Of a stretch of DNA of 64,000 bases, positions 2,954 to 62,051 are shown piece by piece. Every line of letters begins with the position of its first letter. Position 1 is the first letter of the stretch. A program made the position numbers and the translations under genes. The notes below the pieces were generated by a model. That model saw only the letters and a list, made by a program, of their open reading frames with translations, was not told where the DNA came from and ran no database searches. Origin of the DNA: an uncultured Bacteroidales bacterium. GTDB lineage: Bacteria > Bacteroidota > Bacteroidia > Bacteroidales > Paludibacteraceae. The stretch lies in contig CACXYM010000001.1 in the NCBI GenBank assembly GCA_902771935.1, forward strand, positions 55,242 to 119,241. Reading direction: 5' to 3'.

Positions 2954-3005
2954 TAAAACTTCATTTTTTTGCGAAAAATATACAAATCCCATCCCGCAAG
3001 GATAA

Positions 3006-3060
3006 GGTGATTAAAGGGTGATTAAAAGGTGATTAAAAGGTGATTAAAGGGTGATTAAGC
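3006..3060. repeat. 11-bp tandem array A, five units of GGTGATTAAAR
   Basis: Five consecutive 11-bp units read GGTGATTAAAG, GGTGATTAAAA (twice), GGTGATTAAAG and GGTGATTAAGC, followed by CG. The array starts 52 bp upstream of the -33 box of the surface-protein promoter. The same array, with the same unit number and the same AAGCCG end, occurs at 18554-18608. Confidence 0.95.
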
Positions 3061-5629: not shown

Positions 5630-6595
5630 TTAGATCTCCTTAGCTATCAGATAATCATTTCGGCTCTGTGAGTTGCGAATAATGAGTTCTCCTAAGAAGC
5701 CGGCAAGAAACAGCATACAACCTAATACCATTGACAAGATAGAGAGGTGGAAATAAGGATTATTTGCCACTAACATCGCCTGATGACCATGATAAAGAGC
5801 ATATAGTTTCATTGCGCCAACAATAACGATAGCGATAAAACCAAGCCCAAACATCAGGCTGCCTATCAATCCAAAGAAGTGCATCGGCTGTTTGCCGAAC
5901 TTATTGAGGAACCACAAGGTCATCAAATCAAGGTAACCATTCACAAAGCGGTTGAGACCAAACTTAGATACACCAAACTCACGCTTACGATGTTGCACCA
6001 CTTTCTCACCTATTTTAGTGAAACCTGCGTTCTTAGCAAGATAGGGTATGTATCGGTGCATTTCTGAGAATACTTCGATATTCTTCACTACTTCATTGCG
6101 ATAAGCTTTTAGACCGCAGTTCATATCATGCAGTTGAATTCCTGTCACCTTACGCGCTGTGGCATTAAATAGCTTGGACGGAATATTCTTGGTGAACTTA
6201 TTATCATAGCGTTTCTTCTTCCATCCGCTAACAAGGTCGTATCCTTCTTCCTTTATCATTCGATACAGTTCAGGAATCTCATCGGGCGAGTCTTGCAGAT
6301 CCGCATCCATCGTGATAACAACATCACCTTTTGCCGCCTTAAAACCGCAATAGAGCGCAGCAGACTTACCATAGTTACGACGAAAACAGATACCATGTAC
6401 CGGAGAAACTCCGGATTTGCCTTTCGGAGCAGCTAACTCTTCTATCACCTTCCACGATTCATCGGTAGAGCCATCGTTGACAAAGATTACCTCGTAGGAG
6501 AACTTATTCTCTTTCATCACGCGCTCTATCCATTCATAGAGCTTTGGCAGCGACTCTGCTTCGTTAAAAAGAGGTATAATAACTGATATATCCAT
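5630..6595 (-). CDS. Family 2 glycosyltransferase, dolichol-phosphate-mannose synthase / GtrB-ArnC-like, with two membrane helices
   Basis: 321 residues. The N-terminal GT-A fold shows SVIIPLFNEAESL (residues 4-16), VNDGSTDES (39-47) and the metal-binding MDADLQDSPDEIP (96-108). CGLKAYR and HRKREFGVSKFG are typical of the DPM1/GtrB/ArnC group, which transfers a sugar from a nucleotide donor to a polyprenyl phosphate carrier at the inner face of the cytoplasmic membrane. Two C-terminal membrane helices (about 235-260 and 280-303) anchor it. The gene is the first of a three-gene unit with the helical unknown and the PagL-like barrel; the MscS gene ends 6 bp upstream, so a longer operon is likely. 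The donor and acceptor cannot be read from the sequence. Confidence 0.9.
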   Translation of the reverse strand: MDISVIIPLFNEAESLPKLYEWIERVMKENKFSYEVIFVNDGSTDESWKVIEELAAPKGKSGVSPVHGICFRRNYGKSAALYCGFKAAKGDVVITMDADLQDSPDEIPELYRMIKEEGYDLVSGWKKKRYDNKFTKNIPSKLFNATARKVTGIQLHDMNCGLKAYRNEVVKNIEVFSEMHRYIPYLAKNAGFTKIGEKVVQHRKREFGVSKFGLNRFVNGYLDLMTLWFLNKFGKQPMHFFGLIGSLMFGLGFIAIVIVGAMKLYALYHGHQAMLVANNPYFHLSILSMVLGCMLFLAGFLGELIIRNSQSRNDYLIAKEI

Positions 6596-18363: not shown

Positions 18364-18553
18364 TAATTTGACGAAAAAATAAAATATGGTATATTTTTTA
18401 GGCTAATTTAGACTTCTTTTTGGCTGTTTTTAGGCTAATTCTAAACCACTTAGCCCAAAGGTTCGAATATTCCCCAACCACACTTTCATTTAACTCCCAA
18501 CCACACTTTCACTTAACTCCCACCCACGTACCCATCACACTCCGATGACATAA

Positions 18554-18608
18554 GGTGATTATAAGGTGATTAAAGGGTGATTATAGGGTGATTAAAAGGT
18601 GATTAAGC
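18554..18608. repeat. 11-bp tandem array B, five units of GGTGATTAWAR
   Basis: Units read GGTGATTATAA, GGTGATTAAAG, GGTGATTATAG, GGTGATTAAAA and GGTGATTAAGC, followed by CG. The array ends 50 bp before the -33 box of the umuD promoter and 190 bp from the -33 box of the minus-strand promoter. It is a near-copy of array A at 3006-3060. Confidence 0.95.
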
Positions 18609-18658: not shown

Positions 18659-18690
18659 TTTGCATAGATGCCAAAAAAGCAGTACTTTTG
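18659..18690 (+). promoter_or_regulatory. umuDC promoter
   Basis: TTTG (18659-18662), 20-bp spacer, TACTTTTG (18683-18690). Because transcription should start near 18697, starts inside or upstream of this element are excluded for umuD, which supports the ATG at 18735 (or 18705). Confidence 0.85.
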
Positions 18691-18734
18691 TCGTCCAAAT
18701 TGGTATGACCAGGGACGGATTAGTAAATAGGACA

Positions 18735-19160
18735 ATGGACGGATTACACAACATAACCTCAGCGGAGCAAGAGTCTCCGGAGTTAGTGCTCGCAGAGCAT
18801 GTGCATGCAGGTTTTCCTTCGCCTGCAGCCGATTACACGGAGCGCATAGACATAACTCGTGAACTTATTAAGCATCCCGAGACTACTTTCTACGCACGAA
18901 TTGAAGGGGATAGTATGCGCGACGCAGGGATATTCAGCGGCGACTTAGTGGTCATAGACCGCAGTATAGAAGCAGCCGACGGCAACTATGTGGCTGCCTA
19001 TATAGACGGCGAGTTTACCGTCAAGGAGTTTCGTTCCGATCCCGCCAACAACTGCGCCTGGCTCATCCCGCACAATAAAGCCTTCAAACCCATCAAAGTG
19101 CATGAGGACAACGCCTTCATCATCTGGGGAGTGATAACGCATACTATTCATAGGCTGTAG
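18735..19160 (+). CDS. umuD: UmuD-type error-prone repair protein (LexA/S24 family auto-peptidase)
   Basis: 141 residues from the ATG at 18735. With this start the catalytic residues fall at Ser60 (in EGDSMRD) and Lys97 (in FTVKEF), the same numbers as in E. coli UmuD; the ATG at 18705 would shift them by ten. The cleavage site is Ala25-Gly26 in VHAGFPSPAADY, where E. coli has Cys-Gly. RecA-stimulated self-cleavage gives UmuD', the partner of UmuC in the translesion polymerase Pol V. umuC follows after 37 bp made almost entirely of a heptamer repeat that also supplies the umuD stop codon. Regulation: a strong promoter and the 11-bp array upstream; no LexA box was recognised. Confidence 0.93.
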   Translation: MDGLHNITSAEQESPELVLAEHVHAGFPSPAADYTERIDITRELIKHPETTFYARIEGDSMRDAGIFSGDLVVIDRSIEAADGNYVAAYIDGEFTVKEFRSDPANNCAWLIPHNKAFKPIKVHEDNAFIIWGVITHTIHRL

Positions 19161-19198
19161 TCGAAGGTCGAAAGCAATTAGTCGAAAGTCGAAAGCTA
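19157..19198 (+). repeat. Heptamer array at the umuD/umuC junction
   Basis: Six 7-bp steps: GTAGTCG, AAGGTCG, AAAGCAA, TTAGTCG, AAAGTCG, AAAGCTA. It includes the umuD stop codon (TAG 19158-19160) and runs up to the first base of the umuC start codon. The same units occur in frame inside gltX at 36371-36426. Confidence 0.85.
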
Positions 19199-35187: not shown

Positions 35188-36810
35188 ATGAAGATTATGG
35201 AACGTCGTGTAAGAGTGCGTTTTGCTCCGTCTCCGACAGGAGCATTGCATATTGGCGGTGTGCGCACTGCCTTGTATAATTATCTATTTGCCCGTCAGCA
35301 TGGTGGTGATATGTTGCTGCGTATCGAAGATACGGACTCGACCCGTTTTGTGCCGGGTGCAGAGGAGTATATATTAGAGTCACTTCATTGGCTTGGCATC
35401 GAAATAGACGAGGGTTTGCGGGCGAAGGAGTCGAAAGAAGAGAGTCGAAAGTCGAAAGTCGAAAGTCGAAAGTCGAAAGAAGGTATTGAGATTGAAGCGG
35501 TGGGGGATCATGGTCCTTATAGGCAGAGTGAACGGAGGGAGATATATCATACGTATGTGAATCAGTTGTTGGAGTCGGGTCATGCGTACTATGCCTTTGA
35601 CACGCCGGAAGAGTTGGAAGCGAAGCGTAAAGAGATACCTAATTTTCAATACGATGCGCGCAGTCGCATGGGCATGACCAACTCGCTGACGCTCGGTATG
35701 GACGAAGCTAAACGCCGCATCGCCAATGGCGAGAAATACGTAGTGCGTTTCTTGGTTGAGCCAGATGAAGATGTGACGGTGCATGATTTGATTCGCGGCG
35801 ACGTGACGATAAACAGCAATATACTGGACGACAAGGTGCTGTATAAGTCCGCCGATGATCTTCCGACGTACCATTTGGCGAATATAGTGGATGACCATTT
35901 GATGGAGATTAGTCATGTTATTCGCGGTGAGGAGTGGTTACCTTCCGCTCCGCTGCATGTGCTGCTCTATCGCGCATTCGGTTGGAGTGATACGATGCCA
36001 GCTTTTGCGCATCTGCCATTGTTGCTGAAGCCGGACGGTAACGGTAAGTTGAGTAAGCGTGACGGCGATCGTTTGGGATTCCCTGTTTTCCCGCTGGAGT
36101 TCCACAACGAGAAGGATGGTACGGTTAGTTCGGGTTACCGCGAGAGCGGCTATTTCCCGGAGGCGGTGATCAACTTCCTTGCGCTACTCGGATGGCATAC
36201 GACGGGTGACCAGGAGTTGTTCACGATGGACGAACTGATTGCGCAATTCAGTCTTGACCGCGTGTCGAAATCGGGTGCTAAGTTTGACTACGAAAAGGGC
36301 AAATGGTTTAACCACCAGTACCTTCAGATGAAGAGCAATGAGGAATTGGCAGAACTATTCATGCCGATTGTTGAGTCGAAAGTCGAAAGTCAAAAGTCGA
36401 AAGCTATTAGTCGAAGGTCGAAAGCTGAGGTGGCGAAGATTATCGGGTTGGTGAAAGACCGTGTGAACTTTGTTCCGGAGCTGTGGGAACAGACTAATTT
36501 CTTCTTCGTTGCTCCGAGTGAGTACGACGAGAAATCGTTAGCGAAACGTTGGAAAGAAGACAGTCCTCGTCACATGACGGAGATGCTTGCGCTCCTTGAG
36601 CAACAGGAGGACTGGTCAGCCGAGGCATTAGATAATCTGATTATGCCCTGGATAGCGGAAAAAGAATATGGTGTGGGTGTAGTGATGAATGCGTTCCGCA
36701 TCTGTCTTGTTGGAGCCGCTCGCGGTCCGCATATCTGGGCGATAACGGATGTTCTTGGGAAAGAAGAGACCTTACGCCGAGTGCGTACTGCTCTCGCCAA
36801 AATAGGCTAA
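35188..36810 (+). CDS. gltX: Glutamyl-tRNA synthetase with two in-frame heptamer-repeat insertions
   Basis: 540 residues from ATG 35188 ([15 protein letters not shown] 35197 is an alternative). Attaches glutamate to tRNA-Glu. The class I signatures are [20 protein letters not shown] (HIGH motif) and [10 protein letters not shown] (KMSKS motif), with PSADDLP-like [20 protein letters not shown] between them. Two insertions made of 7-bp repeats are translated: [20 protein letters not shown] at about residues 81-100, just before [11 protein letters not shown], and [19 protein letters not shown] at about residues 397-415. Both are Lys/Ser/Arg-rich, presumably surface loops, and do not touch the motifs. 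The 3' end overlaps the convergent recQ by 39 bp. Confidence 0.95.
35428..35483. repeat. Heptamer array 1 inside gltX
   Basis: Eight 7-bp steps: GGAGTCG, AAAGAAG, AGAGTCG, then AAAGTCG four times, and AAAGAAG. Three heptamers equal seven codons, so the peptide repeats as SRKSKVE. Confidence 0.95.
36371..36426. repeat. Heptamer array 2 inside gltX
   Basis: Eight steps: TTGAGTC, GAAAGTC, GAAAGTC, AAAAGTC, GAAAGCT, ATTAGTC, GAAGGTC, GAAAGCT. Same unit family and same variant order (AAAGCTATTAGTCGAAGGTC) as the umuD/umuC junction. Confidence 0.95.
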
Positions 36811-38430
36811 CAGATAATCTTCCCCACCCTGCCGGGCATACCCTAACATCGATTGAAGACGAGCCACGTAATGTGCTCGTCTTTCTTCGTAAACAGAGGC
36901 AGGGACAAAGACTTCCGTTTGACGTTCCTTGGTATAGGTGACAGCACAAGCGACGGTACGCGGAATATAGGTGATGATTCCTCGCTGTGCCAGCGCGACG
37001 AGCAGGTCATGGTTGGGCTCGGAGATATATTGGAGGTCGGTGAAGATACCGGTATATCGTCGCATGAGGTCTTGTAGTAGGTTATCCTGTTCGGGAGTAA
37101 GATTATACTCATAGAGATTAGCTCGCGGGACGCGTATGAGCACTCGCGCCTGCGTTTCTCGTTCTTCCTCAAAGGCTATCCATCCGGCTTGTGTCAGGAG
37201 ATGCAAAGCTGAATAGGTTTGAATGACGGGCAATCCCATCACATGGCATAGTTCATCCATATGCAGTGCGAAGGTGTGTCCGAGTCCGCTTCCTTCGCCT
37301 ACTTTCAAGAAGTCAGACACTTTATCATAGACTTTTGCGATAAACTCCTGCGGCGGATAGTGGTCGGCTGCGCGCTTACGGAGTTTGGCATCATCTTCCG
37401 GCGCATAGAGCAGTACGCAAAAGGCTTGCTCTCCGTCTCTACCGGCACGCCCTGCTTCCTGGAAATACGCCTCGATACTGGACGGCAGGTCGTAATGCGC
37501 GACGAAGCGCACGTCGGGTTTATCGATACCCATTCCGAAGGCGTTCGTACAGACCATGACTCGTGTTTTTCCGTCCTTCCATAAGGTCTGTTTTTGTGCT
37601 CTTTCGGCAGCGTCCAAGCCCGCATGGTAGAAATCTGCGGAGAGGCCTTGTGCTTGGAGCCATTCACAGAGTTCTTTGCATCGTTTGCGGTTACGCACAT
37701 AGATGATACCCGTTCCGGGCACGCCGTTCATGATACGTACTATCTGTTTGAGTTTATCTTCGCTGTCGGCACAGTTGCGAACGACATAGCGCAAGTTCTC
37801 TCTATGAAAACTTTGCCTAAAGACGTTCCATTGGTGATTGGTGATTGGTGATTGCTGATTGGTGAGCTTGTGCATGATATCGGTTTGCACCTCCGGGGTT
37901 GCCGTAGCCGTAAGCGCTAAAACGGGCACATGCTTATCCGGAGGCATGTTTTCCCATAACTGCGCTATCCGTAGATAACTCGGGCGGAAGTCGTATCCCC
38001 ACTCACACACACAATGTGCTTCATCTACAGCTACGAGGCCAATGGGCAGTTGCGCCAATCGTTTGCGGAAATCGGCACTCTCAAGGCGCTCGGGACTGAC
38101 ATAGAGGAATCGATAAGGACCGAACTGGCAGTTATCGAGTGCGATGCGCTGTTGTTCGTAGGTCATCCCGGAATAAATAGCCGCAGCCCGGATGTCACGT
38201 TTGCGCAGGTTCTCTATTTGGTCTCGCATCAAAGCGATGAGAGGTGTGATGACGAGGCAGAGGCATTGTTTGACGAGTGCAGGTATCTGGAAGCAGAGAC
38301 TTTTACCTCCTCCTGTCGGCAGCAGTGCGAGTGTATCATGCCCCTCAAGCACGGAGTTGATAATCTCTTGCTGGAGAGGTCGGAAATCGTCGTAACCGTA
38401 ATATGTTCGCAATACCTCGCGCGGTGTCAT
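36772..38430 (-). CDS. recQ: RecQ family DNA helicase (short form)
   Basis: 552 residues. Walker [17 protein letters not shown] (about 36-51), DEAH box [20 protein letters not shown], motif [13 protein letters not shown], the aromatic-rich loop and motifs V-VI ([36 protein letters not shown]) are complete. After the helicase core only a winged-helix-like region is seen; the Cys4 zinc module and the HRDC domain of E. coli RecQ (609 residues) are not evident. It unwinds DNA 3' to 5' in recombination and fork repair. A heptamer repeat is translated as [11 protein letters not shown] between motif III and [14 protein letters not shown]. The gene converges on gltX with a 39-bp overlap; the M20 peptidase gene ends 2 bp upstream of its start. 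Confidence 0.92.
37829..37866. repeat. Heptamer array inside recQ
   Basis: On the minus strand: CTCACCA, ATCAGCA, ATCACCA, ATCACCA, ATCACCA. Translated in frame as QQSPITNHQ. Confidence 0.9.
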
Positions 38431-38432
38431 AA

Positions 38433-39803
38433 CTAATTGGCTGCAAAAGCTTTATAGAATTCTGTGACGGCGATGATGCCTTTTTCCCAGACCTCGAGAT
38501 CCATGGATTCATTGGGTGAGTGAATGGCATTGGCTTCCAGTCCGAATCCCATGAGAATAGTCTTCACCCCGAGCACTCGTTCGAAGTCGGAAATAATAGG
38601 AATACTTCCGCCTCTTCGTGCGGCCAATGGTCTTTTACCGAAAGCGATTTCAAAGCCTTTCTCTGCGGCTTTATAAGCGGGAATATCTATTGGGCAGACA
38701 TATCCCTGTCCACCGTGCATTGGTGTTACTTTGACGCGCACCCCTTTAGGCGCGATGGTCTGCATATAATCGGCAAAAGCGTCACTTATCTGTTGGTGGT
38801 TTTGATTAGCTACGAGTCGGCAGCTGACTTTGGCAAATGCTTTTGACGGCAGGACGGTTTTGCTTCCTTCGCCAGTATATCCACCCCATATACCGCAGAC
38901 GTCAAATGAAGGCCTGCAAGAGTTGCGTTCAAGCGTAGAATATCCTACCTCGCCAAAGACGTCGTCCACATCGATAGCCTTGTTATACGTCTGTTGCGAG
39001 AACGGTATCTGCGCTATCATATCACGTTCAGCCTGAGGGATAGGCAGCACGTCGTCATAGAAGCCCGGGATAGTGATACGGCCGTCCTTATCCACCACCT
39101 TTGCAAGCATTTCGCACAAGGCATTAATCGGATTCTTTACCGCTCCGCCGAAATGGCCGCTGTGTAAGTCACGATTGGGTCCGTCCACTTCGATTTCCCA
39201 GTACGCGAGTCCACGGAGTCCGGTGGTGATAGAGGGTGTGTCCTTCCCAATCATAGAGGTATCGCTGACTAAGATGATATCGCACTTGAGCAAGTCCTTG
39301 TGCTCCTCGATAAAAGCCTCCAGTGAAGGCGACCCGATTTCTTCCTCTCCTTCAAAGATGAACTTCACGTTGCAGTTCATTAAGCCTTCACGCACGAGGT
39401 ACTCGAACGCCTTAGCTTGAATCATAGCTTGGCCTTTGTCATCATCTGCACCGCGACCATAATAGCGTCCGTTTCGCACTTCGGGCTCCCATGGGTTAGA
39501 CTGCCATTGTTCGAGTGGTTCGATTGGCATTACGTCGTAATGGGCGTAGACCAACACGGTTGGTGGTTGGTGGTTTGTGGTTTGTGGTTTGTATTCGGCA
39601 TAGACGAAAGGGTTGCCTTTTGAGGGCATTATCTCGGCTTTTTGGCAACCGGCTTTGAGCAATAGTTCTTTCCATCTTTGCGCACAACGGAGCATATCTT
39701 GGTGATGCTCAGGTTGACAACTGACGGAAGGAATACGGATAAGACTTGCCCACTCTTCCATAAAACGCGCCCTATTGGCTGCAATGTAATCAGTAATAGT
39801 CAT
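38433..39803 (-). CDS. M20 family dipeptidase
   Basis: 456 residues from ATG 39803 (MTITDYIAANRARFMEEW); the longer frame upstream crosses the promoter. Zinc-dependent peptidase. Visible: VLVYAHYDVMPIEPLEQW (metal His and the Asp two residues on), GRGADDDKGQAM (bridging Asp), FIFEGEEEIGSPSLEAFIEEH (catalytic Glu-Glu), LVSDTSMIGKD and RRGGSIPIISDFERVLG (C-terminal ligand region). Dimerisation insert between. Length fits the M20 dipeptidase branch. A heptamer repeat is translated as QTTNHQPPT between YAEYKP and VLVYAHYD. Cytosolic; hydrolyses di- or short peptides. Confidence 0.92.
   Translation of the reverse strand: MTITDYIAANRARFMEEWASLIRIPSVSCQPEHHQDMLRCAQRWKELLLKAGCQKAEIMPSKGNPFVYAEYKPQTTNHQPPTVLVYAHYDVMPIEPLEQWQSNPWEPEVRNGRYYGRGADDDKGQAMIQAKAFEYLVREGLMNCNVKFIFEGEEEIGSPSLEAFIEEHKDLLKCDIILVSDTSMIGKDTPSITTGLRGLAYWEIEVDGPNRDLHSGHFGGAVKNPINALCEMLAKVVDKDGRITIPGFYDDVLPIPQAERDMIAQIPFSQQTYNKAIDVDDVFGEVGYSTLERNSCRPSFDVCGIWGGYTGEGSKTVLPSKAFAKVSCRLVANQNHQQISDAFADYMQTIAPKGVRVKVTPMHGGQGYVCPIDIPAYKAAEKGFEIAFGKRPLAARRGGSIPIISDFERVLGVKTILMGFGLEANAIHSPNESMDLEVWEKGIIAVTEFYKAFAAN
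39558..39592. repeat. Heptamer array inside the M20 peptidase gene
   Basis: Plus strand: CGGTTGG, TGGTTGG, TGGTTTG, TGGTTTG, TGGTTTG. Read in frame on the minus strand as KPQTTNHQPPT. Confidence 0.9.
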
Positions 39804-39821
39804 ATGAATCAATTTATGCTG

Positions 39822-39853
39822 CAAAAGTACTACTTTTTTTTGATTTACGCAAG
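39822..39853 (-). promoter_or_regulatory. Promoter of the M20 peptidase / recQ unit
   Basis: Minus strand: CTTG (39853-39850), 20-bp spacer, TACTTTTG (39829-39822), 18 bp before the ATG. It is back to back with the plus-strand promoter at 39870. Confidence 0.8.
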
Positions 39854-39869
39854 AAAAATTATGAAATAA

Positions 39870-39901
39870 TTTGTACATGTGATTAAAAAGTTGTATCTTT
39901 G
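39870..39901 (+). promoter_or_regulatory. Promoter of the GH13 / transporter operon
   Basis: TTTG (39870-39873), 20-bp spacer, TATCTTTG (39894-39901), 24 bp before the ATG at 39926. Confidence 0.85.
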
Positions 39902-50078: not shown

Positions 50079-50220
50079 AGTCGTAGTATACTTGTAGTAT
50101 AGTTAAAGTATATTTGACCGTCGATTCACTGTCGATTGACAGACACCTCATCGTCGTTCAATCGTCGGTCGACCGTCGGGTGACTGTCGGGCGACCGTCG
50201 GGTGACCGTCGGGAACAGAC
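50079..50220. repeat. 11-bp tandem array C, about 13 degenerate units
   Basis: Every 11 bp a unit ends in TAT, GTC or GAC: AGTCGTAGTAT, ACTTGTAGTAT, AGTTAAAGTAT, ATTTGACCGTC, GATTCACTGTC, GATTGACAGAC, ACCTCATCGTC, GTTCAATCGTC, GGTCGACCGTC, GGGTGACTGTC, GGGCGACCGTC, GGGTGACCGTC, GGGAACAGAC. The unit drifts from AT-rich near the promoter to GC-rich away from it. The array starts 59 bp upstream of the -33 box of the BspA-like gene. The rest of 49939-50379 holds only that promoter, the terminator below and purine-rich DNA. Confidence 0.9.
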
Positions 50221-50260
50221 GGAAACGAATGAGAGAAAAAATGAGGGGAAAAAAGAGGGG

Positions 50261-50284
50261 AAAAAAAGCCGGATGGTATCCGGC
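50261..50284 (-). terminator. Intrinsic terminator after the nucleotidyltransferase gene
   Basis: GCCGGATGGTATCCGGC (50268-50284); on the minus strand the stem is followed by seven T. It ends the unit that starts upstream with the RND operon or lipid kinase. Confidence 0.85.
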
Positions 50285-50379: not shown

Positions 50380-51204
50380 CTATGAGAGTTGGGAGAGTTG
50401 GTCGAGTTTGCCGACGTCGAGGAGCGGGAGGTCGATCTGGAGGGCACGGAGCGTGCCGAGAGCATGCTCCACTATGTGGAGATAGAAATCGATAATTGAA
50501 AATTTATTGAATGATGGATTGAGCCGTGAGCTGCGCTCACTTAATGGTGACGCTTCGCTTAATGATGAATTATAGGCCTGTAATAGCGGTAAGGCAGCGG
50601 GAGAGAGGAGTTGCATGCCGGAGAAAGCCAGAAGACGGAATGATGACGCTGCGCTTAATGAGCCGGCTTCGCCTGAATGATGGAATGATGAAGGCCGAGT
50701 CTCACCGGTGGCGAGGTTTGTCCAGCCGCAGAGGTTATCGTGCTCGTCGAAACAGAGATATCGCTGCGTCTCGCGGGATTTGACCACTAGAAGGCCAAGG
50801 AAGGGGTTACGGGTTACGGGTGACTGGTTACGTGGATATTCGTCTATTATGTCGCGGAGGTTGATGTCGGAGAGGATGTCCACGTTGATGGCGAGGAGCG
50901 ATTCGTCCGGCGCGAAGGTTGACCAGGCTTTGAGTAAGCCACCACCCGTGTCCAGCAGGTTATCCCGCTCGTCGGAGATAGAGATATTGGAGCCGAAGTT
51001 ATTATTCTCGCGCAGGTAGTCGATGATCATGTCCGGGAAATGGTGGACGTTAACGATAATATCGTTAATGCCTGCGCTCTGGAGCTTGCGAATCTGGTAC
51101 TCCAGCAACGTCTGACCATGCACAGGCACTAAGGCCTTGGGCATCGTGTCGGTGAGCGGTTTGAGCCGCGTTCCTAATCCTGCAGCGAAAATAAGGGCTT
51201 TCAT
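50380..51204 (-). CDS. Sugar-1-phosphate nucleotidyltransferase (NTP_transferase, MurU/GMP-type) with repeat insertions
   Basis: 274 residues. MKALIFAAGLGTRLKPLTDTMPKAL is the nucleotide-binding signature; LDTGGGLLKAW and LLAINVDILSD (Asp of the metal site) follow. It would transfer a nucleotide to a sugar-1-phosphate for envelope sugar synthesis; the substrate is not evident. Three stretches are made of repeat DNA read in frame: PRNQSPVTRNP (heptamers, 50803-50837), RPSSFHHSGEAGSLSAASSF and SSLSEASPLSERSSRLNPS (mini-hairpin DNA, 50510-50700). The motifs remain intact, so the gene may still work, but the insertions sit in the C-terminal half that usually binds the sugar. A gap of 1 bp to the lipid kinase gene shows co-transcription. 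Confidence 0.8.
   Translation of the reverse strand: MKALIFAAGLGTRLKPLTDTMPKALVPVHGQTLLEYQIRKLQSAGINDIIVNVHHFPDMIIDYLRENNNFGSNISISDERDNLLDTGGGLLKAWSTFAPDESLLAINVDILSDINLRDIIDEYPRNQSPVTRNPFLGLLVVKSRETQRYLCFDEHDNLCGWTNLATGETRPSSFHHSGEAGSLSAASSFRLLAFSGMQLLSPAALPLLQAYNSSLSEASPLSERSSRLNPSFNKFSIIDFYLHIVEHALGTLRALQIDLPLLDVGKLDQLSQLS
50500..50700. repeat. Mini-hairpin repeat DNA inside the nucleotidyltransferase gene
   Basis: On the minus strand GCGCAGC occurs at 50530-50536 and 50648-50654 and GCGAAGC at 50552-50558 and 50666-50672, each within longer palindromic arms (for example GTGAGCGCAGCTCAC), linked by CATCATT- or CATTAA-type steps. Confidence 0.8.
50803..50837. repeat. Heptamer array inside the nucleotidyltransferase gene
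   Basis: Plus strand: GGGGTTA, CGGGTTA, CGGGTGA, CTGGTTA, CGTGGAT. Read in frame on the minus strand as PRNQSPVTRNP. Confidence 0.9.
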
Positions 51205-60653: not shown

Positions 60654-60923
60654 ATGAAAAAGAAAGCATTGACCTTTATTAATCTTATTTTAGGTGTATT
60701 GGCAACTATCTTTGCGGGTTGTCATGCTCAGAAGAAAGTTGCTCCTGAGCCAGAGCCTGTTTGTATGTATGGAGGCCCGGGTCAGATGGGCGAACTTACT
60801 GTGCGTCAGGACAGTACTATGGAGAGCGAAGCTGTTGTAGCAGAAGAAGACAAGGTGCAATCGCAGGAGGTTTCTCCGGCAGAAAGACCACGTCCAGTTA
60901 AGTACGGTCCGCGGCCGCAATAA
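60654..60923 (+). CDS. Radical-SAM-associated putative lipoprotein (rSAM/lipoprotein system, short form)
   Basis: 89 residues from ATG 60654 (MKKKALTFINLILGVLATIF, lipobox AGC with Cys23). The mature part opens HAQKKVAPEPEPVCMYGGPG; the Cys-Met-Tyr-Gly segment after the lipid anchor matches the lipoprotein member of the Bacteroidota rSAM/lipoprotein system. Usual members have a longer C-terminal domain; here only an acidic then Pro-rich tail follows (EEDKVQSQEVSPAERPRPVK), so this is a shortened version. The stop codon TAA overlaps the start of the radical SAM gene by one base. It is the probable substrate of that enzyme; the modification is unknown. Confidence 0.75.
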   Translation: MKKKALTFINLILGVLATIFAGCHAQKKVAPEPEPVCMYGGPGQMGELTVRQDSTMESEAVVAEEDKVQSQEVSPAERPRPVKYGPRPQ

Positions 60924-62005
60924 TGATGAAGTTGCGTCTCCGTATTGCGCTGGAGTTAGAACGACTACGACGCAATAATCTCAAGCAGTTACACCCCTTG
61001 AGGCAACTCTTCTGGGAGAGTACATTACGCTGCAATGTGCATTGTCTGCATTGTGGAAGTGATTGTATTTCCTCTGTCTCACAGCCAGATATGCCGGCAG
61101 AAGACTTCCTCAAAGTCATAGACGAGGAAGTGACTCCGCATGTCAATCCGCGCGACGTGCTGATTATTATCTCCGGCGGTGAACCGACGATGCGCAAAGA
61201 CTTACCTGAGATAGGCCGTCAGTTGAAGAGACGTGGTTATCCGTGGGGAATGGTTACCAATGGTGTAGCGATGACGCCTACTCTTTTCCGCGAACTGCGC
61301 CAAGCAGGTTTGCGCTCGCTCGCTATCAGTCTTGACGGATTGGAAGAGGACCATAAGTGGTTGCGCCAATCGCCATTAGCCTACGAAGGCGCATGCCGTA
61401 CTATTCGTCTCGCCGCTGCAGAGAAAGGACTAATCTGGGACGTTGTAACCTGCGTCACAAGACGAAGTATCGAGCACTTAGACCAAATACGTGACTTAGT
61501 CAAATCGCTCGGCGTGCAGTACTGGCGCATTTTCGGTATAGACCCGATGGGACGCGCTGCTACTAATCCTGAGCTTGTGCTCAACGACGATGAGTTCAAA
61601 ACGTTGATTCAGTTCATTCGCGACGAGCGCATCAAGACCCAGAATGGCGAACAGAACCTTTTTGTTTCTTATTCGTGCGAGGGTTTCTTAGGCGATTACG
61701 AGGGAGAAGTGCGCGATTATTTATACCAATGTTCTGCCGGCGTAACGGTAGCTTCTATCTTAGTGGACGGGCACATTTCCGCTTGCACGTCGATTCGCGG
61801 TAAGTACTACCAAGGCAATATCTATAAGGATCATTTCTGGGAGGTATGGGAAAACGGCTTCAAGGATTATCGTGACCGCAGTTGGATGAAAAAACAGGAA
61901 CCATGCGATTCCTGTTCATTCTTCCGTTACTGTGAAGGTAATGGTATGCATCTTCGTCGTGAGGATGGCTCGCTGATGCTCTGCCACCTGCACAGACTCC
62001 AATAA
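60923..62005 (+). CDS. Radical SAM/SPASM protein of the rSAM/lipoprotein system
   Basis: 360 residues. The radical SAM cluster is Cys-x3-Cys-x2-Cys in STLRCNVHCLHCGSDC (about 34-49); IISGGEPTMRKDLPEIGRQL is the SAM-binding GGE motif. The SPASM-like C-terminus has CSAGVTVASILVDGHISACT, then CDSCSFFRYCEGNGMHLR, giving ligands for extra iron-sulfur clusters. The N-terminus is a basic helix (KLRLRIALELERLRRNN). This combination is the enzyme of the Bacteroidota rSAM/lipoprotein pair (the family I recall as TIGR04133). Cytoplasmic; would modify the lipoprotein precursor before export. The following heptamer array starts with its stop codon. Confidence 0.88.
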   Translation: MMKLRLRIALELERLRRNNLKQLHPLRQLFWESTLRCNVHCLHCGSDCISSVSQPDMPAEDFLKVIDEEVTPHVNPRDVLIIISGGEPTMRKDLPEIGRQLKRRGYPWGMVTNGVAMTPTLFRELRQAGLRSLAISLDGLEEDHKWLRQSPLAYEGACRTIRLAAAEKGLIWDVVTCVTRRSIEHLDQIRDLVKSLGVQYWRIFGIDPMGRAATNPELVLNDDEFKTLIQFIRDERIKTQNGEQNLFVSYSCEGFLGDYEGEVRDYLYQCSAGVTVASILVDGHISACTSIRGKYYQGNIYKDHFWEVWENGFKDYRDRSWMKKQEPCDSCSFFRYCEGNGMHLRREDGSLMLCHLHRLQ

Positions 62006-62051
62006 CAAAGTACAAAGGACCAATTACAAAGTACAAAGTACAAATAAAAAA
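62003..62051 (+). repeat. Heptamer array starting at the stop codon of the radical SAM gene
   Basis: TAACAAA, GTACAAA, GGACCAA, TTACAAA, GTACAAA, GTACAAA, TAAAAAA. The first three bases are the stop codon and the last unit merges into the arm of the terminator. Confidence 0.9.

Follow-up and report, generated by a model that had tools for sequence, protein, structure and literature searches.

Analysis of the heptamer array present in the glutamate–tRNA ligase gene (gltX) of the window, the whole 64-kb stretch of DNA considered here, which comes from a gut bacterium, revealed preferred array ends, unlinked copies, in-frame sites in essential genes, loops reoccupied by unrelated units, and traces of selection at the codon level. 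The best explanation for these observations, which we consider probable, is that heptamer modules are copied within the genome, altered by slippage, and purged when harmful.

Heptamer arrays in gltX and elsewhere in the window

The gltX open reading frame (ORF) extends from position 35197 to 36810 on the forward strand (the start at 35197 was used, an ATG at 35188 also being possible) and is free of interruption along its full length, arrays included. The product matched the family model TIGR00464 (E value of 4.2e-141; 471 bits for a cut-off of 290), and its predicted structure compared with Elizabethkingia structure 6brl with a TM score of 0.85, both the family model and the whole fold thus identifying the protein as a member of the family. 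The first array (35428 to 35483, forward strand) is in frame and spans 56 bp, confirming the eight 7-bp steps of the AAAGTCG type described in the earlier note. It was detected by TRF as 7.3 copies of AGTCGAA (86% matches, score of 81, positions 35429 to 35479) and codes for the 19 residues at positions 78 to 96 of GltX. The second AGTCGAA array (36374 to 36424, forward strand; TRF score of 58) codes for a peptide of 18 residues. In the predicted model, pLDDT was below 50 at residues 80 to 95, in the first array, between the strands formed by residues 72 to 76 and 99 to 102; the other low-pLDDT stretches (residues 299 to 301 and 312 to 316) were both short. The second array corresponds to a turn that connects two helices (mean pLDDT of 67 for the block). 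The gap between DEG (residue 73) and GPYRQSER comprises 32 residues in the GltX of the window versus 14 in the array-free congener L011, in agreement with the earlier estimate of about 20 additional residues. The same gap comprises 7 residues in Phocaeicola vulgatus (L045) and about 7 in 6brl, as anticipated for enzymes said to have only a few residues at this place, although part of the length in the window's GltX, IEIEAVGD, belongs to the sequence usual in the genus. Most probably, the insert plays no part in catalysis and is a near-neutral or selfish sequence that the protein tolerates.

Site 1 was compared in 50 congeneric GltX loci, 48 of which were readable, in a set comprising one genome per species. 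AAAGTCG-type units were detected in four of the 48 loci (G000, the genome of the window, G060, G027, and G022) and AAAGGTG units in two (G036 and G044). The 42 other loci had neither; the alignment of GltX across relatives, which had been put forward as a check, therefore uncovered a segment conserved neither in sequence nor in length. An additional AAAGTCG case at site 1 was found outside the 50-locus set (G081, locus L164). In a GltX tree of 51 rows with variable loops removed (the loop-2 cut not being applied in every row), AAAGTCG at site 1 required three changes of state, involving G000 with G060 (support of 91/56), G027 with G022 (96/82), and, separately, G081. The sister of G081 on this tree is G044 (99/96), which has AAAGGTG at the same place. 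Site 2 contained many unrelated units across congeners, for example CTCTCAA, AATTAAA, ACACTAA, TCGATAAA, and AATCTTCA. In loci L021, L024, and L034, a palindrome, CCCCGAAAAATC-loop-GATTTTTGGGG, was observed in frame within the tandem array of site 2. The 68 GltX sequences of other Bacteroidales contained no period-7 or period-8 array detected by TRF at a score of 36.

Exact period-7 runs (at least 11 repeated positions) were present six times in the 64-kb window, whereas 10 sequences generated by a first-order Markov model contained 0.0 on average, and each of the other periods from 4 to 15 gave zero to two exact runs. A CACCAAT array (37830 to 37865, reverse strand) is located in frame in a recQ-like gene (36772 to 38430) and codes for a peptide of 10 residues; at this site, the protein is shorter by 7 residues in 19 of the 21 relatives aligned, and by about 3 in L002 and L039. 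Since CACCAAT has only three matches in G000 (up to 24 in other genomes), local slippage would suffice at RecQ. An M20 peptidase gene (38433 to 39878) contains an in-frame ACAAACC/CCAACCA array (39558 to 39592, reverse strand) coding for QTTNHQPP, and the peptidase is 4 residues longer at this place than 4mmo. A GTAACCC array (50804 to 50832, reverse strand) encodes NQSPVTRN, in frame, in a nucleotidyltransferase-like ORF (50380 to 51204; named by eye). Between two ORFs, an AGTCGAA array (19159 to 19196, forward strand) overlaps the stop codon of ORF 18660 to 19160 and ends just 5' of the start, at position 19198, of an umuC-like ORF (named by eye). An ACAAAGT array (62005 to 62044) was also observed directly after the stop codon of ORF 60923 to 62005, preceding a dnaK-like ORF on the opposite strand (ORF names assigned by eye). 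Longer units were present as well: two arrays of the 11-bp unit AAGGTGATTAA lie far apart (3004 to 3058 and 18550 to 18605, the latter between ORFs), and several 11- and 12-bp tandem arrays are crowded between two ORFs at positions 50150 to 50266.

Dispersed copies, module ends, and candidate copying processes

In G000, a two-unit pattern of the AGTCGAA type had 48 matches, versus one for the reversed control, at about 25 places (neighbors merged by eye). A 17-base pattern was present in 12 of 150 genomes of the family, with 70 matches in G081, 38 in G190, 25 in G000, 15 in G129, and one to four in each of the other eight genomes. A degenerate three-unit pattern was found in 128 of 178 congeners, a count for which the reversed control is weak because AGTTGAA reversed is its own rotation; the controls of the two-unit and 17-base patterns are cleaner. 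A second family, AATTGAG, was abundant in five of 61 genomes (86, 82, 44, 39, and 21 matches), the other 56 having zero to six matches. The genome with 86 matches, G059, has AATTGAG in its MetK too; among its 22 arrays and the MetK array, 16 of 23 have the same start phase and four start one letter earlier, with variable ends.

Among 101 arrays retrieved by a pattern with fixed end letters, 48 were 30 nt long and 16 were copies of one identical 30-mer with AGTCAAA as the second unit. At least two of these copies (L160 and L170) are orthologous, and the flanks of the others look unrelated by eye. As read from the sequences, the module is (AGTCRAA)4AG and consists of direct repeats, no inverted ends being seen by eye. 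With a pattern that left the end letters free, AAAG terminated 87 of 104 arrays and AGTC started 68 of 104; among the arrays that do not start with AGTC, 29 start one to three letters earlier, as expected from chance matches. MurD genes with an insert are 30 nt longer at the site than L253, L254, and L250, the difference corresponding to the module length, and no duplication was seen at this one site. Growth by steps of 21 bp, which had been proposed to keep the frame open, is one possible way, but the net insert in MurD is 30 nt. The prevalence of 30-nt arrays was not accounted for by 30 being a multiple of three, since the proportions located in ORFs did not differ significantly between 30-nt arrays and arrays of other lengths (31/47 versus 28/51, P = 0.31).

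Local slippage only, with arrays grown in place from a chance heptamer and shared units reflecting a sequence preference, would account for the many different units and for the scarcity of the RecQ unit CACCAAT in its own genome. Heptamers also dominate long bacterial repeats, for which polymerase slippage has been proposed as the cause (Mrazek 2007, as told in the available parts of PMC4692102 and PMC4679880). This explanation is unlikely, as one 30-mer with the same internal variant occurs at many unlinked places, the module ends share one phase, and the units are genome-specific. Loss of mismatch repair was rejected as the cause, MutS1 being present in 176 of 178 congeners; the two genomes lacking it have completeness values of 54% and 76%.

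Heptamers might alternatively be made by a templating enzyme, either a reverse transcriptase repeatedly copying a short RNA or a REP-type transposase moving them. The one-phase ends, AG(TCRAAAG)n, and the many genome-specific units would suit a short template, and one RVT_1 protein is encoded by G000. However, a search for RVT_1 and Y1_Tnp in the 178 congeners revealed no copying enzyme following array number. RVT_1 was present in 35 congeners and was not found in the array-rich genomes G081, G190, and G284; Y1_Tnp was present in 68 congeners (48 over the cut-off) and was not found in G000. Among the 23 genomes with at least 40 matches to the degenerate pattern, RVT_1 was detected in four and Y1_Tnp in 13 (mostly weak; tallied by eye). 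We therefore regard an origin of this type as very improbable.

Other repeated structures were observed in the same genomes. G000 has a cluster, located away from long ORFs (L137, positions 1959 to 2219), in which five AGTCGAA arrays alternate with repeats of a TTGGAAGTTAGAGGTTAGA stretch. Another dispersed repeat, about 80 bp long (L171 of G190, positions 6191 to 6275), has many matches in G190, G018, G059, G034, G041, and G274, and a copy in G018 is in frame in MurE at the place where G190 has a heptamer array. At loci of G190 such as L169, L179, L181, L182, and L186, the array precedes ACCG, then a short stem-loop with a stem sequence differing between copies, and then CTCAAAG or a similar sequence.

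Array sites in genes and bias at the codon level

Arrays were classified for all places in G000 and for the places in G081 and G190 among the matches listed, with the exception of two in G190. Among these matches, 59 of 98 classifiable arrays (one more being at an edge) were located within ORFs of at least 200 amino acids. Random spots in the same loci fall within ORFs slightly more often than the arrays do (76% versus 60%, among the matches listed). The ORF arrays among these matches were in the sense orientation in 48 cases and in the antisense orientation in 11, though both strands are stop-free. Comparison of 30 hand-chosen array-bearing ORFs with Pfam provided a match for 29, the exception being L131. 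The hosts, named from these matches, include CysS, DXS, DapB, HisS, TsaD, MiaB, RimO, MetK, a MutY-like protein, MurD, MurE, a RecF-like protein, and a PotA-like ATPase, and thus have mixed functions. The array in gltX had been regarded in the earlier note as an uncommon event in an essential gene; this view is incomplete, since the unit is dispersed, the GltX tree requires three changes, and many other genes carry arrays.

Orthologs of five genes (GltX, MiaB, MurE, MetK, and MurD; 132 sequences) were surveyed with TRF at a score of 36, which was used since, at lower scores, period 6 was common in both real and shuffled GltX. The survey revealed 44 period-7 and nine period-8 arrays, for a mean of 0.07 each in codon-shuffled sequences, and ten period-14 arrays, for a mean of 0.27. 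At least one array was present in 43 of the 132 sequences, a rate that is not that of average genes since the five genes were picked for carrying an array in some genome. Thirty different 7- or 8-bp units were found. All but one (L206) of the 53 period-7 and period-8 arrays were located at eight loops (relative positions determined by eye), two each in GltX, MiaB, and MurE and one each in MetK and MurD. In orthologs of MetK, MiaB (two sites), and MurE, the site was empty or filled with various units, including AGTCRAA, GAATTGA, AATGGTG, GTACAAA, AACGGTG, AAAATCG, AAATCTC, and CAGCCGT. Genomes G190 and G018, which are 95% identical over 6181 aligned bases, differ at the same places of MetK and MurE by a heptamer array versus an unrelated insert, and have the MurD insert in common.

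The R base of AGTCRAA was analyzed according to codon position in the 48 sense arrays among the matches listed. A was present in 27 of 47 cases at CRA, specifying Gln instead of Arg, in none of 45 cases at the third position of TCR, and in three of 60 cases at the first position of RAA. Comparison of CRA with the other codon positions among these matches (27/47 versus 3/105) gave a Fisher P value of 4e-14, which is too small since copies of the 30-mer are not independent events. Copying alone, however, would not put A at CRA in all three frames. In 29 arrays outside ORFs, again among the matches listed, A was present in 18 of 84 units. The test, repeated in other loci, gave 8/12 at CRA versus 2/22 elsewhere. 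CGA is a minor Arg codon here, yet not a rare one, and the first gltX array of the window has two CGA codons, counter to the CAA trend of the other arrays. One strand of the AATTGAG unit contains TGA, and 14 of 15 ORF cases (several of the ORFs being putative genes) read the other strand, an excess that is in part by construction owing to this TGA. The single sense case, in MetK of G059, has TGG at the TGA place. At the level of sequence, the biases in codon position and orientation indicate selection of some kind. The arrays located in ORFs are probably translated, and translation of the gltX repeat, assumed from the outset, is likewise probable in view of the bias at CRA.

The selection indicated by these biases could reflect a function of the inserts, charged peptides or a DNA motif being retained because they help, for instance, in protein interaction, in regulation, or in DNA-protein binding. 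A role at the DNA level would be possible for the arrays located outside long ORFs (about 40% among the matches listed). No particular sequence is needed, however, since orthologs are empty or have unrelated repeats at the same loop; the host genes have mixed functions, and tolerance alone explains the bias. We consider such a function to be improbable. All genomes are draft assemblies, including many MAGs, and loop lengths vary anyway, as would be expected if ordinary variable loops or assembly artefacts merely looked repetitive. The shuffling controls, the 0/68 score of outgroup GltX, the codon test, and the open frames in many independently assembled genomes leave almost no likelihood for this interpretation.

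Proposed origin and relation to known repeats

According to the explanation that we favor, copying of modules within the genome followed by slippage and purging, the gltX insert would be a copy of a dispersed module, (AGTCRAA)n-AG, multiplying in this and other genomes of the genus. We infer that the short module is copied from locus to locus and may then gain or lose 7-bp steps by slippage. A heptamer repeat yields the same cyclic seven-residue peptide in the three frames, so that a stop-free unit is readable anywhere it lands. Copies that break the frame, add a stop codon, or disturb the fold would be lost, and, as a result, the copies surviving in genes would be confined to a small number of surface loops that tolerate them, in the form of disordered, hydrophilic peptides such as SRKSKVE and VESQKSK. 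Turnover would be fast enough for near relatives to have unrelated repeats at one loop. More tentatively, the arrays could form a genus-wide set of genome-specific, fast-turning modules that have defined ends, are copied in trans by a dedicated process, and act as minimal protein-coding selfish elements, a possibility that we hold to be rather doubtful.

Heptameric repeats are known in several bacterial phyla, mainly in intergenic regions or beside start codons, according to the available parts of PMC4692102 and PMC4679880. They include GGGAATC in Xanthomonas and GGGGA(T/C)T in Nostoc (PMC4692102), and TAACTGA in Beggiatoaceae and some Bacteroidetes, in sets mostly located upstream of starts (PMC4679880). 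Like these repeats, as described there, the arrays reported here are 7-bp tandem repeats, dispersed, genome-specific, and beyond chance (6 versus 0.0 in the window; 44 versus 0.07 in orthologs). In contrast to the mainly intergenic repeats described for Xanthomonas, Nostoc, and Beggiatoaceae, 59 of 98 arrays among the matches listed are in ORFs of at least 200 amino acids, and arrays occur in frame in conserved essential enzymes, at the same loops across species, and with many unit families. Rickettsia palindromic elements are dispersed, located in frame in unrelated genes, and code for a conserved peptide (PMC10969869, in the part available). The modules similarly occupy in-frame positions in protein genes unrelated to one another and code for a peptide in common, but they are made of direct repeats over about 30 nt and lack inverted ends, whereas the Rickettsia elements, in that account, are palindromic and about 150 bp long. 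The heptanucleotide phase-variation tracts of Haemophilus influenzae, in the available part of PMC2651432, vary in number, thereby shifting or truncating the frames of surface genes or tuning promoters. Both systems have 7-bp tandem units, some within ORFs; unlike the tracts so described, the arrays reported here leave the frames of housekeeping genes open. A search of mainly open literature retrieved no account of heptamer arrays lying in frame within essential Bacteroidales genes. The novelty resides in the combination of bacterial heptamer repeats with a Rickettsia-like coding insertion, each part being already known.

If the proposed origin is correct, mobile sequence that codes for protein in essential genes can consist of very short tandem repeats, and a natural insertion scan of the tolerance of core enzymes for extra residues would be available in these species. 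The predominance of seven-base repeats in bacteria, a long-standing question, would also become open to testing, since one loop can be compared in related species in which it is empty, filled, or occupied by a replacement.
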